Part shown: piece after piece, positions 939 through 17,304 of the stretch
Numbering within the stretch: position 1 is the stretch's first letter
How the letters are laid out: each line of letters opens with the position of its first letter
Program-made: the position numbers and the translations under genes
The notes under the pieces: generated by a model
What the model was told of the DNA's origin: nothing
The model's input: only the letters and a program-made list of their open reading frames with translations
Database searches by the model: none
Source: Armatimonadota bacterium
GTDB taxonomy: Bacteria > Armatimonadota > UBA5829 > DTJY01
Assembly: GCA_017993055.1 (NCBI GenBank)
Contig: JAGONM010000036.1
Location: forward strand, 1 to 38,209
Length of the DNA: 38,209 nt
Reading direction: 5' to 3'

Positions 939-1421
939 ATGTCCACCATCCGCCGAGCCGCAATCGAAGATGCCGATCTCCTCGCTCGGATCATTCGCGA
1001 GTCGTTCGCCGGCCCGGCGAAGGAGTTCGGCCTGACGCCGGAGAACGCCCCGACTCACCCATCGAACTGCACACCCGAGTGGATCGAGCGCGACTTCGGC
1101 AAGGGTGTGCGGTACTTCATCCTCGAAGACGACCGCCTACCCTGTGGATGCGTCGCCATGGAGATCCCCGATCCCGAGTTCTGCTACCTCGAACGCCTCG
1201 CCGTCCTGACCGGGCGTCGCCGCAAGGGATTCGGTCGCCTGTTGGTCCAGCACGTGCTCGATCGGGCATGGGCTCACGGTCTCCGGCGAGTCGAGATCGC
1301 CATCATCGCCGTCAACACCGACCTCCAGCTCTGGTACGAGCAGCAGGGATTCGCCGTCACCTCAACGAAGTCGCTCCCGAGTCTACCGTTCGACGTCACC
1401 TTCATGTCCCTCGACCTCTGA
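939..1421 (+). CDS. GNAT-family N-acetyltransferase
   Basis: A 160-residue protein with the full GNAT fold: an N-terminal TIRRAAIEDADLLARII helix, a central strand ending in LERLAVLTGRRRKGFGRLLVQ, and a C-terminal LWYEQQGFAVTST. The RRRKGFG loop matches the Q/R-x-x-G-x-G/A pyrophosphate-binding loop for acetyl-CoA. GNAT enzymes transfer an acetyl group from acetyl-CoA to an amine; the substrate cannot be told from sequence. The start at 939 is supported by a GGGAG about 6 nt upstream and by being only 9 nt after hflX. Likely cytoplasmic and co-transcribed with hflX. Confidence 0.88.
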   Translation: MSTIRRAAIEDADLLARIIRESFAGPAKEFGLTPENAPTHPSNCTPEWIERDFGKGVRYFILEDDRLPCGCVAMEIPDPEFCYLERLAVLTGRRRKGFGRLLVQHVLDRAWAHGLRRVEIAIIAVNTDLQLWYEQQGFAVTSTKSLPSLPFDVTFMSLDL

Positions 1422-1516
1422 CTCCGACACAGGAAAAACTCTGAAGGATCTCGTCGCCAGCGGGGTCAAACAGTGCAAGTGAAGCCGCAATCCTGCGTGC
1501 CAAGGAGGCAACTGGC

Positions 1517-2221
1517 GTGACCAAGTCACATAGAGCATTGACGCGTGCCCTGCTGGCCATCTTGGCAATGGGCTTGCTCTCGATCATTCCGCTGACGGCC
1601 GCTCGTGACCTCGGAACGTCCGAGGACTATGCTGAGAAGTGTCGCCTGGAGATAGAGCGGTTCCGTGTGGACATTGACCGCACGGCCGTGCTGGTTGATC
1701 GCCTCTCCGACGGCAAGAGCCGGCTGCTCATCAAATCACCCAAGACCCTGGATCCGCCTTGTGTGGCCATGGTAAACCGCGACGGCGGTCGTGAGTTCGT
1801 GATGGTATATCGGGTCACTCAACCGTTCGATGCCGAACTGGGCAATGCCGGCAAGTGTCGGGTGCTCGGTGCGGTGTACCTGCAGAGCGGCGGCCGGATC
1901 GCAGGCACGATGCATGAACTCGGCTCAGGTACTTACATCCTTGCGTATCAGGAGAAGACGAGGACGCGCGACGAGGGGGTCGCAGTCTTTACCTTCGCCG
2001 TCAGTGACCACGGGCGCCTCGAGTATAAGGAGATCGGTCGAGCCCGGCTCGACTCCCACAGCGCTACCCAGGGAACGTCGAAGCCGTATGTGGCGGTGTG
2101 GTTTCCGAACGACATGCTTATCTTGGAGCAGAATCCGTTCAATCGGGCAACCGTGGACATGGCCTGGGAGCGGGAGAGCTACTCGTTCAAGTTGGTGGAT
2201 ATCCGTGTTGAGTGCGGATGA
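1517..2221 (+). CDS. Secreted protein of unknown function, tandem paralogue 1
   Basis: A GTG start at 1517 follows AAGGAGG. The 234-residue product begins with a basic stretch and a hydrophobic segment (ALLAILAMGLLSIIPLTAA), a clear signal peptide, so it is probably exported. I do not recognise the mature domain. Its middle segment (VTQPFDAELG through RVLGAVYLQSGG and a GTYIL strand) lines up with the equivalent segment of the next gene (VYVPVNAQLEG, RILGAVALLVEG, GVYMLYM). The two therefore look like diverged tandem duplicates. A pair of cysteines sits in the mature part and one near the C-terminus. No enzymatic motif is visible. Confidence 0.7.
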   Translation: MTKSHRALTRALLAILAMGLLSIIPLTAARDLGTSEDYAEKCRLEIERFRVDIDRTAVLVDRLSDGKSRLLIKSPKTLDPPCVAMVNRDGGREFVMVYRVTQPFDAELGNAGKCRVLGAVYLQSGGRIAGTMHELGSGTYILAYQEKTRTRDEGVAVFTFAVSDHGRLEYKEIGRARLDSHSATQGTSKPYVAVWFPNDMLILEQNPFNRATVDMAWERESYSFKLVDIRVECG

Positions 2222-2264
2222 CCCGACGATGGACGGAGCGAAAGCTCCGGCGAAGGAGTCGACC

Positions 2265-2993
2265 ATGAGGACGTCAGCGCGCATCATGTTTCTCATTCTG
2301 ATGATGGGACTGCTTGGCTCAGCTCATGCCGCCCGGTGGCGTGACGAGATTGCGGCACTTACGAAAGAAGTGCACAGCATTCGACTCGAGCAGATAGCCA
2401 TTGTCGTGGCCGACGAATCCGCGAACGAGAGCGGTTTGTTGATCAGAGACGGAGTCGGCGCGAACCCGGACCTCAAGTACCCCTGGCGCGAGGAGAAGTG
2501 GGGCGATATCCCTGCGATCAAGGTCACCCAGGTGTATGTCCCGGTCAACGCCCAGTTGGAGGGTATCGATCCCGGACGCATCCTCGGTGCCGTTGCGCTG
2601 CTCGTCGAGGGGTCCTCGGCGAAGGATGCGACCAAGAAGGTGAGACCCGGCGTGTATATGCTCTACATGTTGGACCGTCCGAGTCTGACCACCACAGGAG
2701 AGACCGATCTGGCGCTGATCTCCGTTGCAGTCGGCGACAAGCCCGATTCCGGGGACGAGGGGAAGGTGTCATACAGTGAGGCGCTTCGCATTCCCGCCAA
2801 AGTCGTGAAGGTTTCCTCCCAGCGTCTGCTTGAGAAGACTGAAGAAGTCACCGTGACGTTCCCGAAGTCGAAGGACGTCACCCCGGAGAAGCCGGCGGAC
2901 CGCGCGGCCGCCGTTCTCAGGTGGGGCGAGCAGTCCCTCCGCTTCGACCTCGATCTCGCCCTCAAGCTGCTGCAGAGGACTGACAAATCGTAG
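2265..2993 (+). CDS. Secreted protein of unknown function, tandem paralogue 2
   Basis: The frame is open further upstream, but that part overlaps the previous gene. The start at 2265 has GAAGGAG 6 nt before it and is followed at once by a signal peptide (MRTSARIMFLILMMGLLGSAHA). The predicted product is 242 residues. An ATG at 2229 is a less likely alternative. The core (VYVPVNAQLEG, RILGAVALLVEG, GVYMLYM, LALISVAVGDK) mirrors the preceding gene, which ends 43 nt upstream, so the two probably form one transcript. There are no cysteines in the mature part, unlike paralogue 1. Function unknown. Confidence 0.72.
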   Translation: MRTSARIMFLILMMGLLGSAHAARWRDEIAALTKEVHSIRLEQIAIVVADESANESGLLIRDGVGANPDLKYPWREEKWGDIPAIKVTQVYVPVNAQLEGIDPGRILGAVALLVEGSSAKDATKKVRPGVYMLYMLDRPSLTTTGETDLALISVAVGDKPDSGDEGKVSYSEALRIPAKVVKVSSQRLLEKTEEVTVTFPKSKDVTPEKPADRAAAVLRWGEQSLRFDLDLALKLLQRTDKS

Positions 2994-3088
2994 ATGATTC
3001 CATACACCATACATCGGTGTGGGCCGACATATGGCCTGTCCTGAGAACACCGGTGCTCACGTCACTCCCTCTCCCATCCACGGTGTGC

Positions 3089-3094
3089 TATACT
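3089..3094 (+). promoter_or_regulatory. Extended -10 promoter element for the flavodoxin-fold gene
   Basis: TATACT preceded by GTGTGC gives a TRTGn extended -10. No convincing -35 box is present at 16-18 nt. Transcription would begin near 3100, leaving a short leader that contains AAGGAGG before the ATG at 3128. The same GTGTGCTA core occurs at the promoters near 25190 and 30553. Confidence 0.6.
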
Positions 3095-3127
3095 AGCACC
3101 ATCTCCACCCACCAAGGAGGGCATACG

Positions 3128-3679
3128 ATGAAGGTACTCATCATGTCCGGCAGTCGAAACCCCGAGGGCCAAACCGCCCGGGCCGCCAATGCGTTCCTCG
3201 ACGGCGTCAGGGAAGCCGGCGCCGAGTGCGAATTGATCTTCCTCCCGCCGATGAAGATCGAGCGTTGCCTCCAGTGCGAGAACGACGGCTGGGGCATCTG
3301 CCGCTCCGAAGGCCGATGCGTTATCGATGACGATCTCGCGTCCGTCGCCGACGAGATCCGCGGCGCCGATGCGGTAGTGTTTGCCACGCCCGTCTACTGG
3401 TCCGACCTCAGCGAGAGCCTCCAGGCGTTCCTCAACCGCCTGCGTCGGATCTGCATCGCCGACTCGGGCCGAGCAGGCATCGAGGGCAAGCCCGCGATCG
3501 GTATCTGCGTCGCAGGCGGAGGAGGGGGTGGCGCGCCGGAGTGCACCACCCGCATGGAGTGGATACTTCGCACCTCGGGCTTCGACATCGTCGATCTCAT
3601 CCCGGTTCGCCGACAGAACCTCGAGTCCAAGGTCAAGACGCTGAAGAACACCGGCAAGTGGTTCGCATTGAAACGCTAG
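3128..3679 (+). CDS. NAD(P)H-dependent FMN reductase / flavodoxin-fold protein
   Basis: A 183-residue flavodoxin-like protein. The first strand and FMN phosphate loop read MKVLIMSGSRNPEGQT, and the second flavin loop reads ATPVYWSDLSESLQAFLNRL, as in the NADPH-dependent FMN reductase and iron-sulfur flavoprotein group. A cysteine cluster (CLQCENDGWGICRSEGRC) lies between them and resembles the compact cysteine motif of iron-sulfur flavoproteins, so an Fe-S cluster is possible but not shown. The frame extends upstream to 3017, but the promoter at 3089 and the AAGGAGG just before 3128 fix the start at 3128. Expected role: cytoplasmic electron transfer from NAD(P)H through FMN to an unknown acceptor. 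A strong hairpin follows the gene. Confidence 0.85.
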   Translation: MKVLIMSGSRNPEGQTARAANAFLDGVREAGAECELIFLPPMKIERCLQCENDGWGICRSEGRCVIDDDLASVADEIRGADAVVFATPVYWSDLSESLQAFLNRLRRICIADSGRAGIEGKPAIGICVAGGGGGGAPECTTRMEWILRTSGFDIVDLIPVRRQNLESKVKTLKNTGKWFALKR

Positions 3680-3698
3680 TTACAGGCTCGATAACGAG

Positions 3699-3742
3699 TG
3701 GGAGAGTGGGCGACGGGGTGATCCGAATCTCCCACTCTCCCA
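3699..3742 (+). terminator. Strong hairpin after the flavodoxin-fold gene
   Basis: A perfect 12-bp inverted repeat, TGGGAGAGTGGG paired with CCCACTCTCCCA, has a 20-nt loop and starts 19 nt after the stop codon. It is followed by a mixed pyrimidine tract (including TTTT), not a clean T run. It is most likely an intrinsic or Rho-assisted terminator that isolates this gene from the sigma-factor unit. Confidence 0.55.
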
Positions 3743-3816
3743 TCCTCTCATTTTCACTTGAACCTCCCGCCTCCCGCGCGCGACTGTATGAGTGAACGCG
3801 CAAGGGGAACCGACGT

Positions 3817-4374
3817 ATGAGTACCGAGAGAGAACAGATTTACTACGAACTCCTCGTTCTTCGCTGCCGGCGCCGTGACAAGGGCGCGATGGAGGAGCTG
3901 ATCCGCCACTGGGAGCGGCGGCTCTTCTACTACATCCGACGGCTGCTCGACAGCGAAGAGGACACATGGGATGTCCTCCAGGAGACCTGGCTCAAGGTCA
4001 TCGGGAGCATCGGCGATCTGCGCGAGCCGCGCAGCCTGCCGATGTGGCTCTACCGCATAGCCCGAAACACCGCGATGAGCCGCCTGAGAGGACGGTATGC
4101 CGACAGGGCATTGCTTGATGACAGCGAGGATGTTTCCGAAGTAGATCAGACCACCGACACCTTCAGCTTCGAAGATGCCGAAATGGTTCACTACGGGCTC
4201 AGTCAGTTGTCCTTGCCGCACCGGGAGGTGCTCACCCTGTTCTTTCTCAAGGATCTTTCGATCGATGAGATTGCGGAACTGCTGGGTGTCGCACCTGGAA
4301 CGATCAAGTCACGGCTCCATTTCGCGAAACGCGCACTGCGAGCCGTGCTGGAGCAGGAGGAGGCCATGCGATGA
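3817..4374 (+). CDS. ECF-type RNA polymerase sigma factor
   Basis: A 185-residue sigma-70-family protein of ECF layout. Region 2 spans about residues 20-95 (LIRHWERRLFYYIRRLL, EEDTWDVLQETWLKV, LPMWLYRIARNTAMSRLRGR). Region 4 spans about 125-180 (LSQLSLPHREVLTLFFLKDLSIDEIAELLGVAPGTIKSRLHFAKRALR), with the helix-turn-helix near the end. It would direct RNA polymerase to a dedicated regulon. The start has AAGGGG upstream. Its stop overlaps the start of the next gene (ATGA at 4371), so the two are translationally coupled, the usual arrangement for a sigma factor and its regulator. Confidence 0.93.
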   Translation: MSTEREQIYYELLVLRCRRRDKGAMEELIRHWERRLFYYIRRLLDSEEDTWDVLQETWLKVIGSIGDLREPRSLPMWLYRIARNTAMSRLRGRYADRALLDDSEDVSEVDQTTDTFSFEDAEMVHYGLSQLSLPHREVLTLFFLKDLSIDEIAELLGVAPGTIKSRLHFAKRALRAVLEQEEAMR

Positions 4375-4934
4375 ATAGACCAGATTCCTTCACGGACAGA
4401 CTGCTGGCATCCGAGGCCATGACTCCTTCGCTCCGTGAGAGATACGAAAGGGAGGTAGAGGCAATGCTTGAGAGAACTCTTACACCGGCCCAGCGATTCG
4501 GCTTCGGGTTCACAATGCTCGCGTGCCTGGGATGGGCCATGTACTGCGCCTACTCGGCGATCACACAGAGCAGTTGGCCCGTATTCGTCCGTGCGACCTT
4601 CGGTTTCGGATCGTTGTCGGGGCTGATCGGAGCGGCGATCGTCGGAAAGTCGTTTCTGCGCGGCAAGATGCACCGGAGGGCTACCCCCAACACAATCACA
4701 GGGTTGGTTTGGGTGCTCGTCGTATTCATGGTTACGCTATTCCTGGTCTTCACAGGTCGGCAGCCCGATGCCGCCAAGTCGACGTATGTGCTCCTCACGG
4801 GTCTCGTCTTCCTGGTCTCTGCGGCGGTATCACTGATTACCAACCGAATCGACCAGGCGCAGATCAAGACCGAAGAGCAGTTCCTTGAACTCAAGCTCCG
4901 TCTGGCCGAACTGGCAGAGAAGGTCGAGCGGTAA
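4371..4934 (+). CDS. Four-helix membrane protein coupled to sigma factor (candidate anti-sigma)
   Basis: A 187-residue protein with a charged cytoplasmic-type N-terminus of about 45 residues (DSFTDRLLASEAMTPSLRERYEREVEAMLE). Four hydrophobic segments follow, at roughly residues 47-67, 72-92, 107-127 and 138-158, then a charged, coiled-coil-prone C-terminus (QIKTEEQFLELKLRLAELAEKV). Position and coupling suggest it controls the upstream sigma factor, but it has no HxxxCxxC zinc anti-sigma motif, so the role is inferred from context. A structural or transport role is possible. The start is set by the ATGA overlap. Confidence 0.75.
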   Translation: MNRPDSFTDRLLASEAMTPSLRERYEREVEAMLERTLTPAQRFGFGFTMLACLGWAMYCAYSAITQSSWPVFVRATFGFGSLSGLIGAAIVGKSFLRGKMHRRATPNTITGLVWVLVVFMVTLFLVFTGRQPDAAKSTYVLLTGLVFLVSAAVSLITNRIDQAQIKTEEQFLELKLRLAELAEKVER

Positions 4935-5013
4935 GTGGACGGCATCGGAGTGTGCACCTACCTAGCCCCGATGTGCGCCTAACATAGTGAGAACGTCGAT
5001 CGGGGGTGTACTG

Positions 5014-6105
5014 ATGAGAAAACTGGCTGTCGCAGCCATCGCGCTGATCGTATTCGTGCTGTTTGCATTCGGTCCGGGAATCGTGTACAGACCTGCGACT
5101 CTGGTGCATATCGAAGCTGACCGCACCGGGCCGAGCCGCCGGATCATCGCCCGCGACTTCAGACTGAAGGAGTACTCCAGGGAGTTCACGCTCAGCGTCA
5201 AGAGCGGCATAGATCGATCGGACTTCCTCGTTCAGTTGTTCGATGGCTCCGGCACGATGCTTGTACAGATGAGCTTCAAGCCGCAGTACAACAACAGCTT
5301 TCCGTTCAACGTCGGCCGCGGCTTTGCCCCCGGACGGTATCAACTCCGTGTTGTAGAGAAGGGCATTGTCGGACGCTACTCGGTCAGTCTCTACCAGGGC
5401 AGGCTTCCAGACGCCTCACCGAGCCAACTGCTCCTCGTTACGCTCGGGGTGGTCATCAGTGCGGGGTGCTACGGCTATGCTCTCCGACGGAGCGGCGGCG
5501 ATCGTCGGGCTCCGGGCGTCCGGAAGGCACGGTACGTCCTCGGCTGCCTGCTGTTTTCTTTCACGATGATCGTCGGCTATCCTCTTGTGCACGAGACCGG
5601 CCACGCCATCGCGCTTGCGTCATTCCACAGACTCGACCTGCGGGGCTGCGACTTCATTGGCCTGCACGGCGAGCCCCACGTCAGTTGGACGGCCGGTCCG
5701 GATCTGCCCGGCTGGCCTGGGGCGATAATCGGCATCTCCGGGCCGATGCTTCCGAACATCGTGGGCTACCTGATGTTCGCGTTCTGGCTCAGTCCTCTCG
5801 GTCGCCGGTGGCTTGCCCGGTCGTCGGCGCGAGATGTGTTCTGGTCCGGCATCACCGCCTGCATGTTGTTCGCACAGGTGGGCGCCTTCGCGCCGATGTC
5901 GGGCCTGGTGCACGATGGTGACTACTCAGGCTACATCGGCAATATCCCGATCCCTCACTGGCAGGCGAACGCGTTCCTGCTGCTGCTTTCGACGGTCAAC
6001 GCGGTCATCATCTACACGATCGTGAAGCACCTGGTGAAGACCCACGCGAGAAAACTCCCGCCCGCAGGTGAAGGTATTCGCCGTGGGTCGGGTCAAACGG
6101 TGTGA
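5014..6105 (+). CDS. M50-like membrane zinc metalloprotease
   Basis: A predicted 363-residue protein. The ATG at 5014 has GGGGGT 6-7 nt upstream and leads into a signal-anchor; a GTG at 4987 would add nine residues without a better ribosome site. After the first helix comes a beta-rich domain that is probably outside the membrane (about 30-130: EFTLSVKSGIDRSDFLVQLFDGSG, APGRYQLRVVEKG). Further helices follow. One carries HETGH (193-197), an HExxH zinc site in a membrane helix as in M50 proteases. Later come GPMLPN (243-248) and HDGD (300-303), plausible counterparts of the M50 GPxxN and Asp third-ligand motifs. It lies 79 nt after the candidate anti-sigma gene, so cleavage of that protein is an attractive inference. 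The substrate is unproven. Confidence 0.72.
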   Translation: MRKLAVAAIALIVFVLFAFGPGIVYRPATLVHIEADRTGPSRRIIARDFRLKEYSREFTLSVKSGIDRSDFLVQLFDGSGTMLVQMSFKPQYNNSFPFNVGRGFAPGRYQLRVVEKGIVGRYSVSLYQGRLPDASPSQLLLVTLGVVISAGCYGYALRRSGGDRRAPGVRKARYVLGCLLFSFTMIVGYPLVHETGHAIALASFHRLDLRGCDFIGLHGEPHVSWTAGPDLPGWPGAIIGISGPMLPNIVGYLMFAFWLSPLGRRWLARSSARDVFWSGITACMLFAQVGAFAPMSGLVHDGDYSGYIGNIPIPHWQANAFLLLLSTVNAVIIYTIVKHLVKTHARKLPPAGEGIRRGSGQTV

Positions 6106-6129: not shown

Positions 6130-7248
6130 ATGTCCAGGTTTGGGGCTCTTCTTATCACGATTATCAGCTGTTCCGCACTCGTCTGCCCGCCCGCATTCGC
6201 GCTCGCGAGCGAGTATGACCTGAATCAGCGGATCGGTCAGCAGCCGGAATGGCCCGGAGGAGTGGCTGACCTGCTCAACTCGCAGAAACCCGTCTACGCG
6301 TACTTTGTCAACTTGCAGGACAACTTCTACTACTCCGGCGATGCAGCCGCATTCAACTCCTTCATGGAGAGGTACAGCAAACTGGAGGCCGTTCCGCATA
6401 CCCTCGTCCTGCATTGCGGGAAGGGCGAGGTCAAGGCATTCATGGAGCCCAAGACTCATGCCTTCGACTGGCATGTCTTCGTCGTCCCGCCGATGATCCC
6501 GGACGGCGGACTGGACAAGACGAGCCCGTACAAGCGATACGTGACCGTCAACCTCTATCTCGGCTGCGGCATCCAGCTCAGCGAGATCAAGGTCCCGGGC
6601 AACGTCACAGTGAAGCCCGGCAAAGAGATCGACGGGTTCATCAGGAAACATGAGAAGATGTTCCCAAACACCGCAAGTCCGCCTGAACCGTCCATATCCA
6701 ACTTCGGCGCTCGACCGGCCCTCTCACCGGTAAGCATCTATCTGGCGGAAGACGAGACGCTCACAGCCCTTGATGCGCTCAAGATGGACCTGCGCGAGAT
6801 CAAACTTCAGTGGAAGCCGCTCTTCACACTCGATGATTTCGCATGCTATTCCTGGAAGGATCACTGGTTCAAGCTCACGCCTGAGGCTCTGAAGAGGCTC
6901 CCCAAGGCCGCTCCGCCGGAGAACCGCTTGCTGAAGGGCATCCCGTTCGTGCTCTTCGTGAACGGCGAGCGGGTCTACATGGGGGCATTCTGGACCTGGA
7001 TCTCGTCTCTCACGTTCCCGAACCCGGTGATCGTGGCCGATGAGATGTGGCTGCCCTCGAGGCTTAACTGGCTGACGATAGACAGAGCCTATCCCGGCTG
7101 GACGGAGGAGCAGAACGAGGACGATATCCGCAACTCGCCCGCACTACAGAAGGCTCTCGAGGCTGCCGGAAAGTTCGAGGCCTGCAAAGGCATAATGCGG
7201 CCGCCGCCCGGAGGATTCTCGTCAACACAGCCGCTCGATGAACGGTGA
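6130..7248 (+). CDS. Secreted protein of unknown function
   Basis: The ATG at 6130 follows GGAGGG and lies 24 nt after the metalloprotease gene, so it is likely the last gene of that operon. The 372-residue product has a signal peptide (LLITIISCSALVCPPAFALAS) and no other clear membrane span. The N-terminal half contains an alpha/beta-looking stretch (KPVYAYFVNLQDNFYYSGD, PHTLVLHCGKGEVKAF). The C-terminal half is rich in Trp and Pro (WLPSRLNWLTIDRAYPGWTEEQNEDD). I do not recognise the family and see no catalytic motif. Its last 27 nt overlap the convergent transporter gene. Confidence 0.75.
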   Translation: MSRFGALLITIISCSALVCPPAFALASEYDLNQRIGQQPEWPGGVADLLNSQKPVYAYFVNLQDNFYYSGDAAAFNSFMERYSKLEAVPHTLVLHCGKGEVKAFMEPKTHAFDWHVFVVPPMIPDGGLDKTSPYKRYVTVNLYLGCGIQLSEIKVPGNVTVKPGKEIDGFIRKHEKMFPNTASPPEPSISNFGARPALSPVSIYLAEDETLTALDALKMDLREIKLQWKPLFTLDDFACYSWKDHWFKLTPEALKRLPKAAPPENRLLKGIPFVLFVNGERVYMGAFWTWISSLTFPNPVIVADEMWLPSRLNWLTIDRAYPGWTEEQNEDDIRNSPALQKALEAAGKFEACKGIMRPPPGGFSSTQPLDER

Positions 7249-8478
7249 GGCGAGCAGGAGCGCGGTCAGGAGGATCATCAGCGCGACCGTTGCGACGGCC
7301 ACGACGTTGAAACCGCGCGAGTTCGTGTGTCTGCCCATGAATGCGGCATCGTTAGTGATCTTCAGGACGAAAACCAGGACGATGGGTAGGAGCATCCCGT
7401 TCAGCACCTGAGGCAACAGCATCATCATCAGAAGCGGAAGGTTCGGCAAGAGTACGATCACGGCGGCGAAGAAGATGAAAAACGCCAGTATGCCGTAGAA
7501 GATCGGAGCTTCGGAGAACCGCTTGTCCATTCCGGACTCCCAGCCGAAGGTCTCGCTCGTCGCGTAAGCGGTTGTCAGCGGGAGTATCGCCGCCCCGAGA
7601 AGCGATGCATTGAGCAGTCCGAACGCGAATAGGCCGGACGCGAACCTGCCCGCTAGCGGTCTAAGCGCGACGGCAAGTTGGGATGCCGACGCGACAGAGT
7701 CAACTGTCGATCTCGTCGCCCAGATGGTTGCGGCGCAGGCGACTATGATAAAGAACGCGACAAAGTTCGTGAGAACCGCGCCGAGATAGACATCCGCCCG
7801 CGCGTACCCGAGGTCCTCGGCACTAAGCCGCTTGTCCACGACGTACGACTGTATGAAGAACTGGCCCCACGGTGTGATGGTCGTGCCAACGGTAGCGACG
7901 AACATCAGCAGGTACGCGGTGCTGGTCCACGGGATGTGCGGCTGAAAGACGCTCCGGGCCGCCAGCCCCCAGTCGGGTCGCGCGAGGACGCCGGATATGA
8001 TGTAGGAGATGTAGAGAACGCTGCTCAGAAGGAACACCTGCTGGACACGGCGGAAGTCGAACTTCACCATCAGGAGGTAGACTCCAACGGCGGCGAGGGG
8101 CACGCTGAAGTACGTCGGGACGCCAAAGATGCTGAGGCTTGACGCAATCCCGGCGAACTCGGCCACGGTAGTGAAAAGGTTGGCCACTAGCATCACGAGT
8201 ATCGCCAGCGCCGCCCACTTCGCGCCGAACCGCTCGCGTATCAGCCCGCCGAACCCCTTGCCGGTGACGACACCCATGCGCGCACCCATCTCCTGGGTGA
8301 CCGCAAGGCTGAAGGTGATAAGAATGAGTACCCACAGCAGCCCGTAGCCGAAGCGCGCACCTGCCAGGCTGTAGGTGGCAATGCCGCCTGCGTCGTTGTC
8401 CGCCGCCGCCGCTATGAGTCCTGGACCGATCGCGGCGAACAGCAGGGCAAGTCTCGCCTTCGTGAATCGCCTTCGCAT
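7222..8478 (-). CDS. Nramp-related divalent metal transporter with altered metal site
   Basis: A 418-residue, about 11-helix membrane protein of the Nramp/LeuT-fold family, which moves divalent metals into the cell, usually with protons. The first helix has the Nramp frame GPGLIAAAADNDAGGIATYS, but the canonical metal motif DPGN reads DAGG here (residues 29-32). In helix 6, canonical MPH reads ITPW (201-204). The metal-binding Asp is kept while the Asn and the soft Met are lost. Such changes fit a hard ion such as Mg2+ better than Mn2+ or Fe2+; that is inference. Its ATG shares one base with the stop of the upstream PRC/MgtE_N/CBS gene, so translation is coupled. Confidence 0.85.
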   Translation of the reverse strand: MRRRFTKARLALLFAAIGPGLIAAAADNDAGGIATYSLAGARFGYGLLWVLILITFSLAVTQEMGARMGVVTGKGFGGLIRERFGAKWAALAILVMLVANLFTTVAEFAGIASSLSIFGVPTYFSVPLAAVGVYLLMVKFDFRRVQQVFLLSSVLYISYIISGVLARPDWGLAARSVFQPHIPWTSTAYLLMFVATVGTTITPWGQFFIQSYVVDKRLSAEDLGYARADVYLGAVLTNFVAFFIIVACAATIWATRSTVDSVASASQLAVALRPLAGRFASGLFAFGLLNASLLGAAILPLTTAYATSETFGWESGMDKRFSEAPIFYGILAFFIFFAAVIVLLPNLPLLMMMLLPQVLNGMLLPIVLVFVLKITNDAAFMGRHTNSRGFNVVAVATVALMILLTALLLASPFIERLC

Positions 8479-9767
8479 CAGGCCCCTACCTCATGTTCGA
8501 GGGTATGATCGTCCGCCGTCTGACGCCTTCCCGGCCTGCCGCTCCACGCGCGCACAGGGACGTGTTCGAAGATGTCGTCCACGGTGATGATCCCCTTCAG
8601 TTCGTTGTCGTAGTCCACAACCGGAAGGGCGAGGAGGTTGTACTTGGTGAACAGCTCTGCCACTTCCCTCAGGCTCGCCTCGGGGTGGAGGTGGATGACT
8701 CGCTTGACCATGAACTCCTCAACAGGGGTGTCCGGGAGCGCGACGATCAGGTCTCTGAGCGAGATCACGCCGACGAGCTTTTCACCGGAGTCGACGGCGT
8801 ACAAGTAGTAAATCGTCTCGGCATCCGGGGAGAGTTCGCGCACACGCTCGATTACCTGCTGAGCGGTGAACTGATCTGAAATGGCCAGGAACTCGGTCGT
8901 CATGAGGCCGCCCGCCGTTTCGTCCTCGTAGACGAGCAGCTCGCGGACGTCGGTGGCCTCTTCCGGCTCCATCTCCTTCAGTATCTCCTCTGTGCGCTCC
9001 TCGGGAAGGTCGCCCAGGATGTCTGCAGCCTCGTCGGGCTCCATTTCTTCCAGGATATCGGCCGCGTCGTCCGTGTCCAGGTCATCTATGATCTCGGCCT
9101 GTATCTCCGGAGCGGTCTCCGGCAGGACGTCAGCGGCAGTCTGGACGTCGAGGCTCTCGATGATATCGGTTCTCTGCATCGGGTTCATCTGCTCGATGAT
9201 ATCCGCTATGTCGGCTGGGTGGAGCTTCGACAGCTTCTGGAGCGGAATCTTCAATTTGATGGGGCCGTCCTGCTTCTGTTCAAGCGTTTCCACGTCTTCC
9301 CAGGGGATGATCTTCTCGGGCAGGGGCTTGTGGAAAATGTTGCGCAGAAGGTTGGAGAGCCACTCAACGCCGATCTCGCGGAGCAGGCCGCGCGTGGACG
9401 CGTCGACCCCGAGTAACCTGATCTCGCCGGGCGTCTCCACAAACCGCACGTCGTTGACACGCACGACTTTGTAGTCGTGGATGTCAACGATCTGCCTGTC
9501 CAGCACTTGTCGCTTGAGCCAGATGTCGTCGGGCCGCGGTGAGTAGGCCAGGAGGCGATCACCGCGAACCGGCAGGGCGAACCCGTCTACCTCCTCTCTC
9601 ACCTGAGCCCAAGGGATCAGCAGCATTCCATGGCTGTTCTGGACGACCATGGCCGAGACAATGGGAAGCGGTTCGGCGGGCGTGGCGATAACATCGCGCA
9701 CCTTGCCGATCGGTTCGCCGATGCTGTCAATGACCGCTCGACCGAGTGCCTGAGTCAGGAACTGCAT
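8478..9767 (-). CDS. Soluble PRC-barrel / MgtE_N / CBS-pair protein
   Basis: A 429-residue protein with no membrane helices. Residues 1-155 hold two PRC-barrel-like segments (ALGRAVIDSIGEPIGKVRDVI and a second near 85-150). Residues about 175-290 match the MgtE N-terminal superhelical domain, with repeated acidic units (HPADIADIIEQM, DDAADILEEMEPDEAADILGDLPEE). Residues about 290-405 form a CBS pair (FLAISDQFTAQQVIERV, VGVISLRDLIVALPDTPVEEFM, LPVVDYDNELKGIITVDDIFEHV). In MgtE the N and CBS domains sense cytoplasmic Mg2+ and gate the channel; here the channel is absent and an Nramp-like transporter follows. A regulatory role is inferred. The start has GGGGG 7 nt upstream. Confidence 0.88.
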   Translation of the reverse strand: MQFLTQALGRAVIDSIGEPIGKVRDVIATPAEPLPIVSAMVVQNSHGMLLIPWAQVREEVDGFALPVRGDRLLAYSPRPDDIWLKRQVLDRQIVDIHDYKVVRVNDVRFVETPGEIRLLGVDASTRGLLREIGVEWLSNLLRNIFHKPLPEKIIPWEDVETLEQKQDGPIKLKIPLQKLSKLHPADIADIIEQMNPMQRTDIIESLDVQTAADVLPETAPEIQAEIIDDLDTDDAADILEEMEPDEAADILGDLPEERTEEILKEMEPEEATDVRELLVYEDETAGGLMTTEFLAISDQFTAQQVIERVRELSPDAETIYYLYAVDSGEKLVGVISLRDLIVALPDTPVEEFMVKRVIHLHPEASLREVAELFTKYNLLALPVVDYDNELKGIITVDDIFEHVPVRAWSGRPGRRQTADDHTLEHEVGA

Positions 9768-10233
9768 GATGATCCCCCCTGTTCGGCGGCGAACTGCGAA
9801 GATTCCTGGCGGACGCGAGACTACGCGTGCTGGAAAAGATCCACGATCGCCTGCGGCAATGCGAGAGCTACTGGTCTAACGAAAAACTGGTCTGAGTCAG
9901 GTTGATGTGAGCCGAGCGGGGGGCGGTTAGCGAGAGGATTGAGGAGAGTGGTCGGACGGATCAGTCTCTGCGAGTCCTCCTGCTTCCACTGCCCGCGCAT
10001 CGGCAGCACAGTTTTGTACTATTGGCCGGGTCGGTGTCCACCAACCATCACCTCATATAGCTAGGATGCATGCGCCGTCATCGGCAGCCGACTAGCAGTA
10101 TACCCTTGGCCGGCCTTCGTGTCAAGGAATGACAATCCGGGGAGGAGAATCACCGGTCGTGGGCCAAAGAGGGTGATGTACCAGACCGACGGGCGGCTGG
10201 AATATCTGTGTACATAAGGGGATTCCACAGGAG
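9768..10233. other. 466-nt intergenic region holding a long 5' leader
   Basis: No convincing gene. A minus-strand promoter at 10097-10125 implies an RNA leader of about 320 nt (about 10090 down to 9768) before the MgtE_N/CBS gene. The leader can form local hairpins, for example CTGCC/GGCAG (about 9989-10006) and GGTTGG/CCGACC (about 10029-10046). I could not match it to the M-box, yybP-ykoY or other riboswitch consensus by eye. The plus-strand side (10126-10233) holds an AAGGGG and a CAGGAG just before the sulfotransferase start, but no clear promoter. Confidence 0.5.
10097..10125 (-). promoter_or_regulatory. Sigma-70-type promoter for the MgtE_N/CBS-Nramp operon
   Basis: On the minus strand TTGACA (10125-10120) is followed after exactly 17 nt by TATACT (10102-10097). 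Both boxes are near consensus. Initiation near 10090 would give an unusually long leader before the first codon at 9767. Confidence 0.72.
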
Positions 10234-10947
10234 ATGCTTGTCACTGTTATCGGTAGAGGGCACGGGGGCACCCGGGCGATGTCTCAGACGCTCGTGGAGA
10301 GCGGTGTCTACATGGGTGGGCAACTGAACGGGTCATATGATCTCGTCCCGCCGGGTGACATGTACGAGGCGTGTCGGGTGATGGCGCGCCACGTCGTTCA
10401 TCTGGGCGGCGTGCGTTGGGACTTCTCGGCCCTCGATGCCGTGCCGGTTGATGCGGAGTTCGCCCGACTGGTTGATTCGTATCTAACTTCCGTTCTGGGC
10501 AGCGTGGAGAGCCGCAGGGGCTGGAAGCTTCCCGAGACCACGCTGATCTACCCCTGGATAGTGCGTATGTTCCCCGAGGCGTACTACATTCACTGGAGCC
10601 GCGACCCTCGCGATTCGATTCTCGGTGCGCACATGACCGATGATCTCGCCGCGTTCGGCGTTTCCTACGACCCCACCGATGACGAGCGGCTTCGGCGCGC
10701 GATAAGCTGGAAGTACCAGCGGGAGATCGTAAAGGCGACTCAGGCGCCCAAGAACACCATAGACGTCCGGTTCGAGGATTTCGTTCTTGATCAGGAGCGT
10801 ACACTGGCGCGTCTGGAGAGGTTTCTCGGTTTCCCGCTTGCCCGCATAGAGGTCCGTCCTGAATCCGTCGGGCGTTGGCAGAGCGCCGAGGGGCCGACAG
10901 TCTTCGATTTTCTTCAGGACGATATGGCGGAGTTGGGGTATCTCTAA
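10234..10947 (+). CDS. PAPS-dependent sulfotransferase family protein
   Basis: A 237-residue protein with the two PAPS-binding landmarks of the sulfotransferase fold. The 5'-phosphosulfate loop is VIGRGHGGTR (residues 5-14) and the 3'-phosphate site is WSRDPRDS (121-128). There is also a C-terminal RFEDFVLDQERTLARLERFLGFPL segment typical of the family. It would move a sulfuryl group from PAPS to a hydroxyl or amine of an unknown acceptor. No signal peptide is seen, so it should act in the cytoplasm. The opposite strand makes PAPS (cysD, cysNC), which supports the call. The ATG has CAGGAG immediately before it and AAGGGG about 13 nt away, so the exact start is less certain. Confidence 0.85.
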   Translation: MLVTVIGRGHGGTRAMSQTLVESGVYMGGQLNGSYDLVPPGDMYEACRVMARHVVHLGGVRWDFSALDAVPVDAEFARLVDSYLTSVLGSVESRRGWKLPETTLIYPWIVRMFPEAYYIHWSRDPRDSILGAHMTDDLAAFGVSYDPTDDERLRRAISWKYQREIVKATQAPKNTIDVRFEDFVLDQERTLARLERFLGFPLARIEVRPESVGRWQSAEGPTVFDFLQDDMAELGYL

Positions 10948-12692
10948 CGCTTGTGTGCCTCAAGCCGGTAGTGCGGCTCGGCGATCGGGCCTTCGTCGCT
11001 GAGTAGCGGATGAAGCATCGGGTCGGCGAGCACTTCGCGGATGTCCTTCGGTTGGCCGTCGATAATCATCGCGCGCTTCACCAGTCTAATCCCGTGACTG
11101 TAGTCCACATACCAGTTGACGTGAACCGTAGTCAGGGGCTGGATCGGCTTACCGTCGAGCTGATGCCAGCCGTAGATCGCCACGTGATCGGTTCGGTCGA
11201 GCGAGAGATTGGTGATCACCACATCCTTCTTGATGCCAGCCACGAGTTTCCCGAGCGGATTTCCCTTCCTCTGCTCCTCGACGATCGAGTTGTGCGCGAT
11301 GAAGGTCTCGACTGTCGTGCGCGGCTCCCCGAGTGGTTTGGGTCCGAGCCTGACTGTCGCCTGTGCTGAGATGTCGTTCACTATCTTGCGCGTCGGAAGA
11401 GAGCAGTCGAAGGCATCCGCGACCTTCTGAGCGGCCATCGGGGTAAGCGGCGTGCGCACGAAATCCGCATCCGAGCCGACTGAGAGGTAGTCGGGCATGA
11501 CCTGAAAGACCACGGCGCGCTCCCGGTTGTTCGCATCCTTCGCTTTGACCTTGATCGTCACGAACTGCCGCAGGAACTCAGGCAGGTTGCCCTGTTTGAA
11601 CTCCTTAAGCAGTGTCGCCTCACGCTCGATGAGAGGCATCTCTAAGACCGAATGCATGACGGCCGTTCCCCCTCTCGCGCTCTTGCGCCGCGTAGGAATG
11701 TTGACCATCGAGATCTGTGCCGGCTGGATCCACTTCGTGTAAGCCCTGGGGCCGCCGAACGTTCCCCATTTCGACTCCAGCGGCGTCCCCAGAGTGATCG
11801 CCTCGAGGAAACCGTTCATGTCGCCGACCAGCGCGGTGTGCAGGATCTTGTTCGCCGGGTTCGGATGAATGAAGAAGCTTATCTGGCCGTCCATGAAGGC
11901 GTACGTGTCGAACGGCGCCAGTCTGCCCTGCTTCACGAGGAGGTCTTTGGCGAGACGGTCGATCATGCGGTGGGAGGCACGGTAGGTGCCGCCTGTCGGG
12001 CCAACCACCTTCTTCCCGTCGTATGTGATCTCCCTGTCGTCGTACGCAACCACGACAAGCCGCCGCTTGTCATCTCCGTTGAGCCAGGCGAGGAGCTTGT
12101 CTCCATGCTTCTCCCCGTCGGAGTAGGAGTAGTTGGCGTCAAGGTAGGCGACTCGCTCGCACCACTCAGGAATCGCATCATAGGAGTTGATGAAGCCGGT
12201 GATCAGACTCCCTCCGCCGCTGTGACCGGTGACGACGCCGCTGACCTGCGTTCCCGGCATTTCCTTCAATATGCGCTCCAGCGTCTCACGGATGATCGCC
12301 TGATCGTGCTTCGACCGCCATGTCGGCCAACTCAGACCCTCTGCCTCCATGCAGACGAGCACGATGTTGCAGGTGCGATCGAGGTCCCGAAGGACGCGCG
12401 TCTGGGCCGCGATGTGCTGGATGTCGAAGTGCCAGTCGAGGTCGGGCACCATCGCGCATCCCATCGTCTGCTCGATGGTGTTCCCGTTCGGTGTGGCGAA
12501 GAAGATTACGAGGGTAGGGCGGTCGGCGTGCATCACTTGCGGGAGGTTGGTGAGCATCCGGATGCCCTCCACCGTCTTCTCCAACCGCACCTGCTCATGG
12601 AAGAAGGGGCTCCTCGTGAAGCCGCCCAGAGTCGCTCCAGTTGCGGCCAGTGACACCATCAGCAGCGCCGGAATGATGATCTTGACAGGCAT
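10944..12692 (-). CDS. Secreted alpha/beta-hydrolase-like protein with unknown C-terminal domain
   Basis: A 582-residue exported protein (signal peptide IIIPALLMVSLAATGATLG). The N-terminal half has an alpha/beta-hydrolase layout: RPTLVIFFATPNG strand and oxyanion region, then a nucleophile elbow VVTGHSGGGS with Ser158, and a HPNPANKILHTALVGDMNGF segment where a late catalytic His could lie. The C-terminal half (about 390-560) carries a separate conserved-looking module (VAIYGWHQLDGKPIQPLTTVHVNWYVDYSHGIRLV) that I cannot name. An esterase or related hydrolase activity is likely; the substrate is unknown. The start follows GGAAGGTAGGG. It lies 6 nt after the preceding gene of the operon, and its stop overlaps the end of the sulfotransferase gene by 4 nt. 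Confidence 0.75.
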   Translation of the reverse strand: MPVKIIIPALLMVSLAATGATLGGFTRSPFFHEQVRLEKTVEGIRMLTNLPQVMHADRPTLVIFFATPNGNTIEQTMGCAMVPDLDWHFDIQHIAAQTRVLRDLDRTCNIVLVCMEAEGLSWPTWRSKHDQAIIRETLERILKEMPGTQVSGVVTGHSGGGSLITGFINSYDAIPEWCERVAYLDANYSYSDGEKHGDKLLAWLNGDDKRRLVVVAYDDREITYDGKKVVGPTGGTYRASHRMIDRLAKDLLVKQGRLAPFDTYAFMDGQISFFIHPNPANKILHTALVGDMNGFLEAITLGTPLESKWGTFGGPRAYTKWIQPAQISMVNIPTRRKSARGGTAVMHSVLEMPLIEREATLLKEFKQGNLPEFLRQFVTIKVKAKDANNRERAVVFQVMPDYLSVGSDADFVRTPLTPMAAQKVADAFDCSLPTRKIVNDISAQATVRLGPKPLGEPRTTVETFIAHNSIVEEQRKGNPLGKLVAGIKKDVVITNLSLDRTDHVAIYGWHQLDGKPIQPLTTVHVNWYVDYSHGIRLVKRAMIIDGQPKDIREVLADPMLHPLLSDEGPIAEPHYRLEAHKR

Positions 12693-12698
12693 ATCGCC

Positions 12699-14438
12699 CT
12701 ACCTTCCCTCGAAATGGTAGTTGAACCGGCGGTCGGGGGCACTGTCGCCGCTGATCGAGAACTCGATGATGTCGTCCAACTTCTGGATGTTGTCCGCCCA
12801 GTGGAAATCGAGCTTGACGGGTTTCCCCAGGAGGCCGAGGATCGCCCGAGAGACGCTGACCTCCAGCTTGTGCCCATGCGTGCTATAGGTCACGTCAGTT
12901 CCATGCGTCCCATTCCCCTGAGAGAGCGGCCCCCGGTTAGCCATCGCGAAGTGAAGCACATTCCGGTCCACGATGAAGTCGTAGCCGTGCCAGCCGGTCT
13001 TGGGATCGCTATCGGTGTCGAGGTAGAGGAGCATCCACTTCGGATCGGTGGGCGGCGTGATCGGGTCCTTCGTCTCCGCGTAGAAATAGACGTTCTCCTT
13101 GTCATAGGCAACCTTCAACCGCACGAAGTCGTTCCGTCCGGTCGTATTGACGTAGTGCAGCGTATCGTTCCAGCCCTGGGAATCGCGATGCTCGGTGTCG
13201 CCGACCCAGTCGAGGTACTCCGGCTTCACGAGCGTCCAGTCTGCGAACCGGCCGTCGATCCGGACCGTCCTCGGGCCGCTCGACTTCTCAGGTGCCCGGA
13301 TGCCCTTGAACCGGCGGATGCCGGCGATCATCTGGTAATAGTAGTTGTCGGTATGCCCACCCTTCATCGGCTCGATGTCGCGGCTGTACTCCTGGTCGTA
13401 CTGGTCGACGAAGAACGTCTCGCCCTTCTCCGGCTTCCGACCGGTCATCAGGTTGTAGACACCGTCCGCGAGGAAGCGCTGAGCGACCCATTCGTTCCAC
13501 CCCGTGATGAAGATGAACTCGGGATCGACCTCCAGCGCCCGCTTCCACTGCTCCGCGAAGAACAGGCCCTGTTCGGGCTTTCGGTCCGCCGGCTCCGGCT
13601 CCTTCCCGTCGTGGAAGCTGCGCCCGATGTTCGTCATCGGGTGCTGGGCCGCGCTCACGGACACGTATTCCGCGAAGCCCTTCTCGTGCCAACCGATGGA
13701 CTGCGGGTAATGGTCCACCCACGGCCACTTGTCCTTCCCGTCACCGAACCAACCGTTGGGGTCGCTCCACGCCCAGGAGTGCCGGAAGGTGAAGGAGTCC
13801 TTGATATCCTGGCGCATGTTGTCGGGGTTGGCCATGATCAGGGGCTTGCCCTTCCACATGAACCAGAGGTCGCGGTATAGGCCCTTGGAGTAGAAGTCGT
13901 CGTAGAGCTTCTCGACGGTCTTCTCCTCGTGGGAGTGGGCTATGAAGCCGATCTGGGGGGTGCGGCCGCCATTCATGCGCATCTGCGTGTAGATCTCGCA
14001 GAGCCTCATGTAGACGTTCGGGTATGTAAATGAATTCGTCACGTCAAATACGACCACGTCAATCCCTGCGTTGGCGAGCATCCTGGCATGGCTGCGAATG
14101 ACATAGTCCTCGGTGGACACGTAGTAGCCAAGTTCCGGCTCGCCCCAGTGGTGGAAGTGGTTGACGGGGCCCCACTGGGGATCGGTCGGGTTGTCGGCAG
14201 TGATCTTGCTGATGTCGTACGGGCCGGAGGTCGTATGCTGACCGAGCCAGATGAAGTAGAAGATACCGACGGTCTTACCTTCGCGGGGCGGCCCGCATTC
14301 CTCGAAACCTGGCAGCGTCCGGCCGAGCGCGTCCGTGGCAGTCCACGTATCGCTCATCAGATTGCGGTCGTTCCATGCGAGGCAGTCCCCAGCAGCCGCG
14401 AAAGCGACTACGAGCATCAGCCAGCAGAACCTGTGCAT
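12699..14438 (-). CDS. Secreted GH99/GH71-like barrel protein with CBM9/DOMON-like C-terminus
   Basis: The open frame reaches 14462, but the ATG at 14438 has TTGGAGG 5 nt upstream and begins a signal peptide (MHRFCWLMLVVAFAAAGDCLA). The predicted product is 579 residues. Residues about 40-370 look like the TIM barrel of GH99/GH71-type proteins: TVGIFYFIWLG, HARMLANAGIDVVVFDVTN, PQIGFIAHSHEE, GKPLIMANP, FIFITGWNEW. Residues about 395-575 form a beta-rich domain (VRIDGRFADW, FVRLKVAYDKENVYFYAETKDP, YLDTDSDPKTGW) like CBM9/DOMON-type sugar-binding domains. It probably acts on a polysaccharide outside the cytoplasm. Which linkage is cut, if any, cannot be read from sequence. Confidence 0.75.
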   Translation of the reverse strand: MHRFCWLMLVVAFAAAGDCLAWNDRNLMSDTWTATDALGRTLPGFEECGPPREGKTVGIFYFIWLGQHTTSGPYDISKITADNPTDPQWGPVNHFHHWGEPELGYYVSTEDYVIRSHARMLANAGIDVVVFDVTNSFTYPNVYMRLCEIYTQMRMNGGRTPQIGFIAHSHEEKTVEKLYDDFYSKGLYRDLWFMWKGKPLIMANPDNMRQDIKDSFTFRHSWAWSDPNGWFGDGKDKWPWVDHYPQSIGWHEKGFAEYVSVSAAQHPMTNIGRSFHDGKEPEPADRKPEQGLFFAEQWKRALEVDPEFIFITGWNEWVAQRFLADGVYNLMTGRKPEKGETFFVDQYDQEYSRDIEPMKGGHTDNYYYQMIAGIRRFKGIRAPEKSSGPRTVRIDGRFADWTLVKPEYLDWVGDTEHRDSQGWNDTLHYVNTTGRNDFVRLKVAYDKENVYFYAETKDPITPPTDPKWMLLYLDTDSDPKTGWHGYDFIVDRNVLHFAMANRGPLSQGNGTHGTDVTYSTHGHKLEVSVSRAILGLLGKPVKLDFHWADNIQKLDDIIEFSISGDSAPDRRFNYHFEGR

Positions 14439-14454
14439 CGTTACCTCCAAGAGA

Positions 14455-16362
14455 TCAGCCAAGCAAGCTACGACCGGTCAGGAGAGCCATGATAGCCTCG
14501 ACGGAGTCTTCGACCGACATGTCACCAGCGTCAACGCGTAGTTCCGGCGCCTCGGGCGGCTCGTACGGGGAGGACACACCAGTGAACTCTTCGATCTCGC
14601 CCGCGCGTGCCTTCCTGTAGAGCCCCTTCGGATCGCGTTTCTCGCAGATCTCCAGTGGCGTATCGAGGAAGACCTCGACGAACCGGTCGCCGCCGATGAC
14701 CTCACGCGCCGCCCGGCGGTCCTCGCGATATGGCGAGATGAACGAGGTGATCATGATCAGCCCCGCCTCGTTGAACAGCTTCGATACCTCTGCGACCCTT
14801 CGTATGTTCTCGGTGCGGTCATCGGGCGAGAACCCGAGATCCCGGTTAAGCCCATGACGCACGTTATCGCCGTCGAGCACGAAGCAAGCGTGGCCCTCTT
14901 CCATGAGACGCTTTTCAAGTGCATACGCAATGGTGGATTTGCCCGAGCCGCTGAGACCCGTGAACCAGATGGTGACAGGCTGTTGGCCGAGAACGCGCGC
15001 CCGGTCGTCCGACGCCACCAGACCGAGGTGGCGAGTGATATGCCGATCCGCCGGTGTGTCGTCCGCCGTCGGGCGGACCACATCGTACCTGTGGGAGCGG
15101 TCGATAATCATTCCCGCGCCGACGGTGAAGTTCGACTGCGGATCGATCACGACAAAGCTGCCCGTCTGCCGGTTGCGCTGATACTCATCGCAGAAGATCG
15201 GCTTGAAGAGCCGCATCGAGACGCGCCCGATGTCGTTGAGCCCGAGACTCTCCACGTGCTCGCGGTGAAGCGTGTTAGGGTCGATGCGATAGCGCAGTTC
15301 GGATAGCCGGCCGCGAACGGTCTGGGTCGTATGCTTGATGTAGTAGTGCTTGCACGGATCGAGCGGCTCGTCGTGCATCCAGATCAGGATCGCCTCGAGT
15401 TCGTGGGCTACCCACGGCACGTTCGCGGGGTGAGCGAGCATATCGCCCCGCGCGATGTCGATCTCATCCTCTAGGCAGATAGTAACCGCCTGCGGAGGGA
15501 AGGCGTACTCGACGTCCTCGCCGTTCACGAGCACGCGCGATATGCGGCTCATCCTGCCCGACGAGAGCACGAACACCTCATCGCTTATGCGGGCGACGCC
15601 GGAAGCGATAGTGCCACAGTATCCCCGGAAGCCGCCGTGCGGGCGCAGCACGAGCTGGACAGGGAACCGGAAGTCGATCAGGTTCTGGTCGCCCGCAATA
15701 TGGACGCTCTCGAGGTGCGAGAGAACGGAGGAGCCGTGGTACCACGGCATGTTCTCGCTTCTGCGGACGACATTGTCGCCCCTGAGGGCGCTCATCGGGA
15801 TGAATGTTATGTCGCGCGACTGCAGCTTGGCGCAGAACTCGCGGTACTCCTCAGTTATGTCGTCGAACACCTGCTGCGAGTAGCCCACCAGGTCCATCTT
15901 GTTCACCGCGACTACGAGATGCGGGATGCCGAGTAGCGACGCGATGAACCCATGCCGCTTCGACTGGGTGAGCACCCCGTTCTGCGCATCTATGAGGATG
16001 ATCGCGAGATTCGCCGTCGAAGCGCCGGTCACCATGTTGCGCGTATACTGCTCGTGGCCGGGCGTATCCGCGATGATGAAGCGGCGCTTAGGTGTCGAGA
16101 AATGGCGGTAGGCGACATCAATGGTGATCCCCTGCTCGCGCTCGGCCTTGAGTCCGTCGGTGAGTAGCGCGTAGTCGATCTCCACGCGGCCCGCCTTGAT
16201 CGAGTCTTTGTGAAGCGACGCGAGGTGATCCTCGTAGATTGACTTTGCGTCGTGGAGCAGGCGGCCGATGAGCGTCGACTTACCGTCATCGACGCTGCCC
16301 GCCGTGGTGAAGCGCAGGAGGTCGGCCTCCCGGACCTGAGTGAGGAGATCTTCGATCGCCAT
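14455..16362 (-). CDS. cysNC: Bifunctional sulfate adenylyltransferase GTPase subunit / APS kinase (CysN-CysC fusion)
   Basis: A 635-residue fusion. The N-terminal two thirds is an EF-Tu-like GTPase: P-loop GSVDDGKST near residue 22, DTPGHEQYTRNMVTGAS, and NKMDLVGY, followed by beta-barrel domains. The C-terminal part from about residue 455 is APS kinase: P-loop GLSGSGKST near 467, DGDNVRHGLNRDLGF, and FISPYREDR. With CysD it turns sulfate and ATP into APS using GTP hydrolysis, then phosphorylates APS to PAPS. Its ATG overlaps the cysD stop (TGATG), so the two are coupled. Both halves keep their key motifs. No PAPS reductase is present in this window. Confidence 0.97.
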   Translation of the reverse strand: MAIEDLLTQVREADLLRFTTAGSVDDGKSTLIGRLLHDAKSIYEDHLASLHKDSIKAGRVEIDYALLTDGLKAEREQGITIDVAYRHFSTPKRRFIIADTPGHEQYTRNMVTGASTANLAIILIDAQNGVLTQSKRHGFIASLLGIPHLVVAVNKMDLVGYSQQVFDDITEEYREFCAKLQSRDITFIPMSALRGDNVVRRSENMPWYHGSSVLSHLESVHIAGDQNLIDFRFPVQLVLRPHGGFRGYCGTIASGVARISDEVFVLSSGRMSRISRVLVNGEDVEYAFPPQAVTICLEDEIDIARGDMLAHPANVPWVAHELEAILIWMHDEPLDPCKHYYIKHTTQTVRGRLSELRYRIDPNTLHREHVESLGLNDIGRVSMRLFKPIFCDEYQRNRQTGSFVVIDPQSNFTVGAGMIIDRSHRYDVVRPTADDTPADRHITRHLGLVASDDRARVLGQQPVTIWFTGLSGSGKSTIAYALEKRLMEEGHACFVLDGDNVRHGLNRDLGFSPDDRTENIRRVAEVSKLFNEAGLIMITSFISPYREDRRAAREVIGGDRFVEVFLDTPLEICEKRDPKGLYRKARAGEIEEFTGVSSPYEPPEAPELRVDAGDMSVEDSVEAIMALLTGRSLLG

Positions 16363-17267: not shown

Positions 17268-17304
17268 GTCGGGTGAATTAACTTCAGACGCGACCCGCCG
17301 GGGC

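Follow-up and report, generated by a model that had tools for sequence, protein, structure and literature searches.

An NrmT/NRMT-type carrier and a soluble MgtE-like protein in a candidate Mg2+ uptake operon of an Armatimonadota bacterium

Background

The closest described relatives of the system analyzed here are the NrmT operons reported in 2014 by Shin et al. (PMC4072509), who found that most NrmT genes adjoin a gene for the N-cytosolic domain of MgtE and proposed feedback regulation (gating) of NrmT by this detached domain. Carriers of the corresponding NRMT type are defined by the binding-site signature DxxG-TxxA/T (Ramanadane et al., PMC8806188). We analyzed such a gene pair at positions 7222-9767 of a 38,209-nucleotide stretch of Armatimonadota DNA (contig JAGONM010000036.1, assembly GCA_017993055.1), the whole of which is called the window hereafter, and we lean towards reading it as an NrmT/NRMT operon for a Mg2+ importer and a soluble MgtE-type sensor that would damp the carrier.

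The pairing and the gating proposal were both already published in 2014, and the altered metal site of the carrier is likewise a published NRMT type and not new. In the library searched we found no paper testing the MgtE-like partner after Shin et al. 2014. To these data we add the co-occurrence of the two genes in Armatimonadota, the conservation of the partner ligands, M-boxes (Mg2+ riboswitches) on relatives with the same motif, a genome free of MgtE channels and the differing histories of the two genes. The pair bears on the question of whether a freestanding MgtE-type sensor could control a transporter of unrelated fold in trans.

The gene pair and the metal site of the carrier

Both genes lie on the minus strand, and the two open reading frames of the initial annotation are real. 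The carrier gene (7222-8478) starts on the final base of the upstream partner gene (8478-9767), the partner stop and the carrier start having one base in common (TGATG), and a purine-rich Shine-Dalgarno-like stretch stands ahead of the carrier ATG. Because of this overlap and this stretch, translational coupling from partner to carrier is plausible. The carrier is adjoined by an open reading frame homologous to the MgtE N-cytosolic domain with the channel absent, as in the NrmT operons of Shin et al. (PMC4072509). The same carrier and MgtE N-cytosolic-domain gene pair is found in Clostridium acetobutylicum (Ca_c0685), where the partner is split over two genes instead of the single one of the window, and in Acidobacterium capsulatum (ACP2976-2977), with a gene order identical to that of the window. 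An M-box, optional and found in a subset of those operons, is absent from the window, whose leader holds another conserved element.

The carrier has 418 amino acids (Pfam Nramp, E-value 1.7e-88). In a phmmer search of the PDB the top match, and nearest solved structure, was 7qia, the Eggerthella lenta protein EleNRMT, at 350 bits; the second-best Nramp reached 83 bits. In a FastTree phylogeny of 192 sequences it falls inside one 159-row clade with EleNRMT (SH-like support 98), with the canonical Nramps outside. Alignment with EleNRMT and the Nramps of the phylum, canonical members among them, bore out the initial reading of DPGN as DAGG and of MPH as ITPW. The helix-1 motif is D29-A-G-G32 (8383-8394, minus strand) where canonical Nramps have DPGN, in columns conserved in our alignment A1, and the helix-6 motif is T199-T-I-T-P-W204 (7867-7884, minus strand) where they have AVVMPH, with Met replaced by Thr and the first His by Trp. 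D29xxG32 and T199xxT202 match the signature DxxG-TxxA/T, and since this allows Thr, the replacement of Met lies inside the published motif. With DAGG and TTITPW instead of DPGN and MPH, the protein is not a canonical MntH/DMT Nramp. Both helix-6 proton-relay His are lost (TPWGQFFI versus canonical MPHNxxLH), and Gln357 (7408-7410, minus strand), invariant in alignment A1, is the counterpart of helix-10 Gln379 of EleNRMT, where the substitution Q379A is crippling (PMC8806188).

EleNRMT (7qia, 7qic, 7qji, 7qjj; PMC8806188) and the window carrier share DAGG in helix 1, TTIxPW in helix 6, Trp for the first His and the helix-10 Gln. They differ at the old Met position, which is Thr in the window and Ala in EleNRMT, both within the signature, and at the second His position, which is Ile in the window and Asn in EleNRMT. 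The NRMT signature, the NRMT clade and the M-boxes on operons of relatives with the same site (see below) make the assignment of the carrier as a Mg2+-type Nramp (NrmT/NRMT) well supported; by analogy with the published homologues, its transport of Mg2+ would be proton-uncoupled.

Other Nramp-related proteins were seen in the same survey. An Armatimonadota NRMT subgroup (L021, L025, L033-L035, L037-L039, L043 and others) has DA[TS]G, TTITPWGQFY[IV] and Asn for the helix-10 Gln (PN motif). A second subgroup (L080-L092, L094, L096), with DAGA and TTIAPWQLFFQ, lies outside the NRMT clade, is partnerless and often stands behind an M-box. The genome of the window encodes a second Nramp-family protein (L002 1417-2628, contig C22) with GPGS for DPGN, no MPH and the metal-site Asp missing.

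The soluble MgtE-like partner

The partner, of 429 amino acids, consists of a PRC-like N-terminal part, an MgtE_N domain and two CBS domains, and the MgtE channel domain PF01769 was absent from it in the Pfam search. This agrees with the domain order initially proposed, with the PRC-like domain (residues 8-59; 9591-9746, minus strand) just below the Pfam cut-off (19.7 versus 21.2 bits), which its relatives L214 and L216 pass. The MgtE_N domain (residues 182-283; 8919-9224, minus strand; E-value 7.7e-29) contains D213, D245 and D249, equivalent to E59, D91 and D95 of MgtE. The CBS pair (residues 285-403; 8559-8915, minus strand; E-value 6.4e-21) contains D398 and E401, equivalent to D247 and D250, while N377 replaces D226. 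The AlphaFold model, built on an alignment of 65 sequences, has a mean pLDDT (predicted local distance difference test) of 89.7 and a pTM (predicted template modelling score) of 0.69. The partner has the fold of the MgtE cytosolic domain (Z 23.2, root-mean-square deviation of 2.4, 243 aligned residues), the matching region being residues 177-406; the PRC-like N-terminus, which was not folded on its own, gave no separate match in the fold search. The 350 bits to EleNRMT and this fold match indicate that the assignments of carrier and partner are not due to chance.

Compared with the cytosolic domain of Thermus thermophilus MgtE (2yvy, 2zy9), to which it is 36% identical over 243 residues, the partner has in common the N domain, the CBS pair and most of the N/CBS Mg2+ ligands, but it lacks the channel domain and the plug helix, has Asn for D226 and carries an additional PRC-like N-terminal part of 170 residues. 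The ligand equivalents are widely retained across 93 partners: D95 in all 93, D91 in 77 and D247 in 78, with an acidic residue (D/E) at E59 in 85 and at D250 in 75. All five of these positions are acidic in the window partner. In MgtE, mutation of these N/CBS ligand sites prevents Mg2+-dependent closure (PMC5882242). Judged from the sequences, it is plausible that the N/CBS Mg2+ clamp was kept and the covalent output lost.

Some Armatimonadota (L214, L216, L072) encode proteins with the same PRC/MgtE_N/CBS front half to which, unlike in the partner, a PF01769 channel domain is attached. Since such channel-bearing proteins exist, the partner could have arisen simply by losing the channel. At L072 the gene for a PRC-MgtE_N-CBS protein retaining the channel domain (1078-3243) is followed immediately by an NRMT gene (3434-4705), an arrangement that is possibly an intermediate of the detached form.

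Conservation and history of the pair

We searched 291 Armatimonadota genomes for NRMT proper, defined as at least 42% identity to the window carrier, and for the partner type, counted as a whole-partner match or a partial one where a contig end cuts it. Loci of two of these genomes, G230 and G275, are identical over the compared stretch to named Armatimonadetes records, which gives the phylum of the set. The carrier was found in 77 genomes (two as truncated matches) and the partner type in 79. Both occur in 73 genomes, the carrier only in 4 and the partner only in 6 (Fisher p 4e-56, uncorrected for kinship), so that the partner type is present in 73 of the 77 carrier-bearing genomes and in 6 of the 214 without the carrier. 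Some partner-type proteins bear the MgtE channel domain, as Pfam showed for L214, L216 and L072 and as protein length indicated for others; excluding the genomes that apparently have only this form leaves 70 with both, 7 with the carrier only, 5 with the partner only and 209 with neither. Co-occurrence, a check suggested in the initial annotation, thus holds in Armatimonadota, including genomes in which the two genes are unlinked, and the pair is conserved across phyla. In 58 of 80 named loci, which span many bacterial and archaeal phyla, the partner gene precedes the carrier gene in the same orientation, and for such pairs in the Armatimonadota and named sets together the approximate gap is at most 150 nt in 73/93. 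Sixteen named genomes with no partner close by on the carrier's strand were checked, and 14 of them have a match elsewhere in the genome, two of these matches being partial. No natural fusion of carrier and partner was found among the loci read.

The two genes have different histories. In phylogenies of 49 carrier-partner pairs, with Shimodaira-Hasegawa-like approximate likelihood ratio (SH-aLRT) supports, the partner places the window's family with its own Armatimonadota class (SH-aLRT 100), whereas the carrier places it with Actinomycetota and Chloroflexota types (SH-aLRT 96). Approximately unbiased (AU) tests rejected both a carrier forced into the Armatimonadota class (p 0.0005) and a partner forced out of it (p 0.0003 and 0.0007), these p-values being somewhat optimistic because the groups were named after the similarity lists were seen. 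On the simplest reading, an Actinomycetota/Chloroflexota-type NRMT took the place of the earlier carrier, the partner was kept and the pair survived the swap. The loci behind this reading are window 7222-9767 and the relatives L004-L006 and L114-L118.

Substrate, mechanism and alternative explanations

M-boxes were found directly ahead of the partner-carrier operon in four Actinomycetota loci (L114, L115, L117, L118) whose carriers have a helix-6 motif identical to the window's TTITPWGQFFI, and also in L157, L177, L178 and L181, which include Bacillota and Geobacteraceae; at two further loci, L163 and L169, the M-box is just before the carrier. The M-boxes found in Armatimonadota are mostly just before Nramp-related genes, including the TxxT carriers of genomes G056, G057 and G209. 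Since M-boxes precede operons and carriers with the same site, Mg2+ is favored over Mn2+ for the TxxT type. The window's genome has one CorA and no MgtE channel, and the partner is its sole MgtE_N protein.

In the importer-sensor operon that we propose, the Nramp-fold protein would import Mg2+ in the manner of a uniporter. Its site, with Gly and Thr in place of Asn, Ala and Met, would be widened to fit partly hydrated Mg2+, the proton-relay His being gone. The product of the upstream gene would be a soluble Mg2+ sensor of the MgtE type. Its N and CBS domains would clamp together at high cytosolic Mg2+, and the clamped sensor would dampen the carrier through non-covalent docking; that the partner binds Mg2+, docks and gates is what we infer here. 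The near one-to-one co-occurrence, the N/CBS ligands without a plug helix and the MgtE-channel-free genome make the pair a clean system for testing such a sensor in trans.

Several points weigh against this proposal. Gating of MgtE runs through its covalent plug helix. The partner chain stops soon after the D250 equivalent, without a plug helix, and the D226 equivalent is Asn in 65/93 partners, the window's included, so that the MgtE route is not copyable as it stands. The window has no M-box, either at gathering score or at E<=5. Among the published homologues, the C. acetobutylicum NrmTs transport without a partner in B. subtilis, and co-expressing the A. capsulatum MgtE fragment gave no better Mg2+ rescue (PMC4072509). 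The incongruent trees speak against tight co-evolution of an interface, and in many Armatimonadota genomes, the large DA[TS]G subgroup among them, the partner is present but mostly unlinked to the carrier. Of the two-part Mg2+ uptake system that the initial annotation had put forward, the Mg2+-type Nramp and the conserved pair hold, while the homologue tests (PMC4072509) lend no support to gating.

These observations can also be read in other ways. The carrier might be mainly a Mn2+ importer like A. capsulatum NrmT, with a partner answering to Mn2+ or to nothing metal-specific. Together with its MgtE fragment, the A. capsulatum carrier gave full rescue of a mutant in Mn2+ transport but rescued Mg2+ only at low millimolar concentrations (PMC4072509), which also counts against our proposal, and EleNRMT carries Mn2+ as well (PMC8806188), so that Mn2+ is likely a second substrate here. 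TxxT is common to many Acidobacteriaceae relatives, and because the window's genome has neither a canonical MntH (no DPGN/MPH Nramp) nor a ZnuA-type binding protein, the carrier may be its Mn2+ route. We nevertheless consider a mainly Mn2+-directed carrier fairly unlikely, given the M-boxes ahead of the TTITPWGQFFI relatives with a partner and of the TxxT carriers, and given that the counterpart of EleNRMT T224, the Thr conferring Mg2+ interaction, is present in the window carrier.

In another explanation the partner has no gating role and is merely co-expressed with the carrier, acting alone or with another protein (for instance as a Mg2+ buffer, chaperone or CorA regulator). Its dispensability for transport in B. 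subtilis (PMC4072509), the unlinked genes and the incongruent trees all agree with this, but the very strong genome-level association with the carrier and a gene order conserved over many bacterial and archaeal phyla do not, and we judge it rather improbable. Five unlinked partner loci scanned (neighbors HD-GYP, UPF0182, fucosidase, ABC) had no recurrent neighbor, a result that counts against both this explanation and the importer-sensor operon. That the partner is a decayed, functionless MgtE gene could be argued from the channel-bearing PRC-MgtE_N-CBS proteins, but we regard it as extremely improbable, since the detached form is intact, keeps 29-75% identity between phyla and has ligand positions that do not vary, is confidently folded in the AlphaFold model and co-occurs with NRMT.

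The leader of the operon

A leader element specific to the family precedes the operon (window 9935-10057, minus strand; L194 2037-2157; L195 916-1036; L196 785-907), downstream of a sigma-70-like promoter, TTGACA-17-TATACT, with 11/12 matches (10097-10125, minus strand) that is present too in genomes G223, G224 and G225. The window shares this conserved stretch with G223 and G224 at a local score of 44, against 16 for the best of 500 shuffles; the similarity of G224 to G225 is weaker (21 versus 16 in shuffles), and direct comparison of the window with G225 was not above shuffles (14 versus 17). Three of the 291 genomes have the core pattern, each a single time and solely at the NRMT operon, and the one extra match, with three mismatches, is on a par with the reversed-pattern control. 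A model built on the four leaders found nothing else convincing in the class and had no match in the family member lacking the operon. No Rfam family matched the element, and a degenerate M-box was rejected, as a permissive scan of the four leaders gave no match and no M-box core is present.

The claim that the element is structured is weak because its folding stability was not above that of shuffles (z -0.28). The purine-rich block, the pyrimidine tract and the Shine-Dalgarno sequence of the leader could form alternative pairings. It is quite doubtful that this is an undescribed structured cis-element of about 120 nt, placed like the M-box of the sister operons and acting as a new metal-responsive regulatory RNA for NRMT and sensor. 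If it were, this and the carrier swap would make RNA sensor, protein sensor and carrier interchangeable parts of the module.

Other genes of the window

On the plus strand, positions 4987-6105 encode a 372-amino-acid protein without a Pfam match that has a HETGHA zinc-protease-like motif. The region 10234-19179 holds a possible sulfation cluster comprising a sulfotransferase, a CysN/APS-kinase (adenosine phosphosulfate kinase) fusion, a CysD-like protein and a GHMP kinase.

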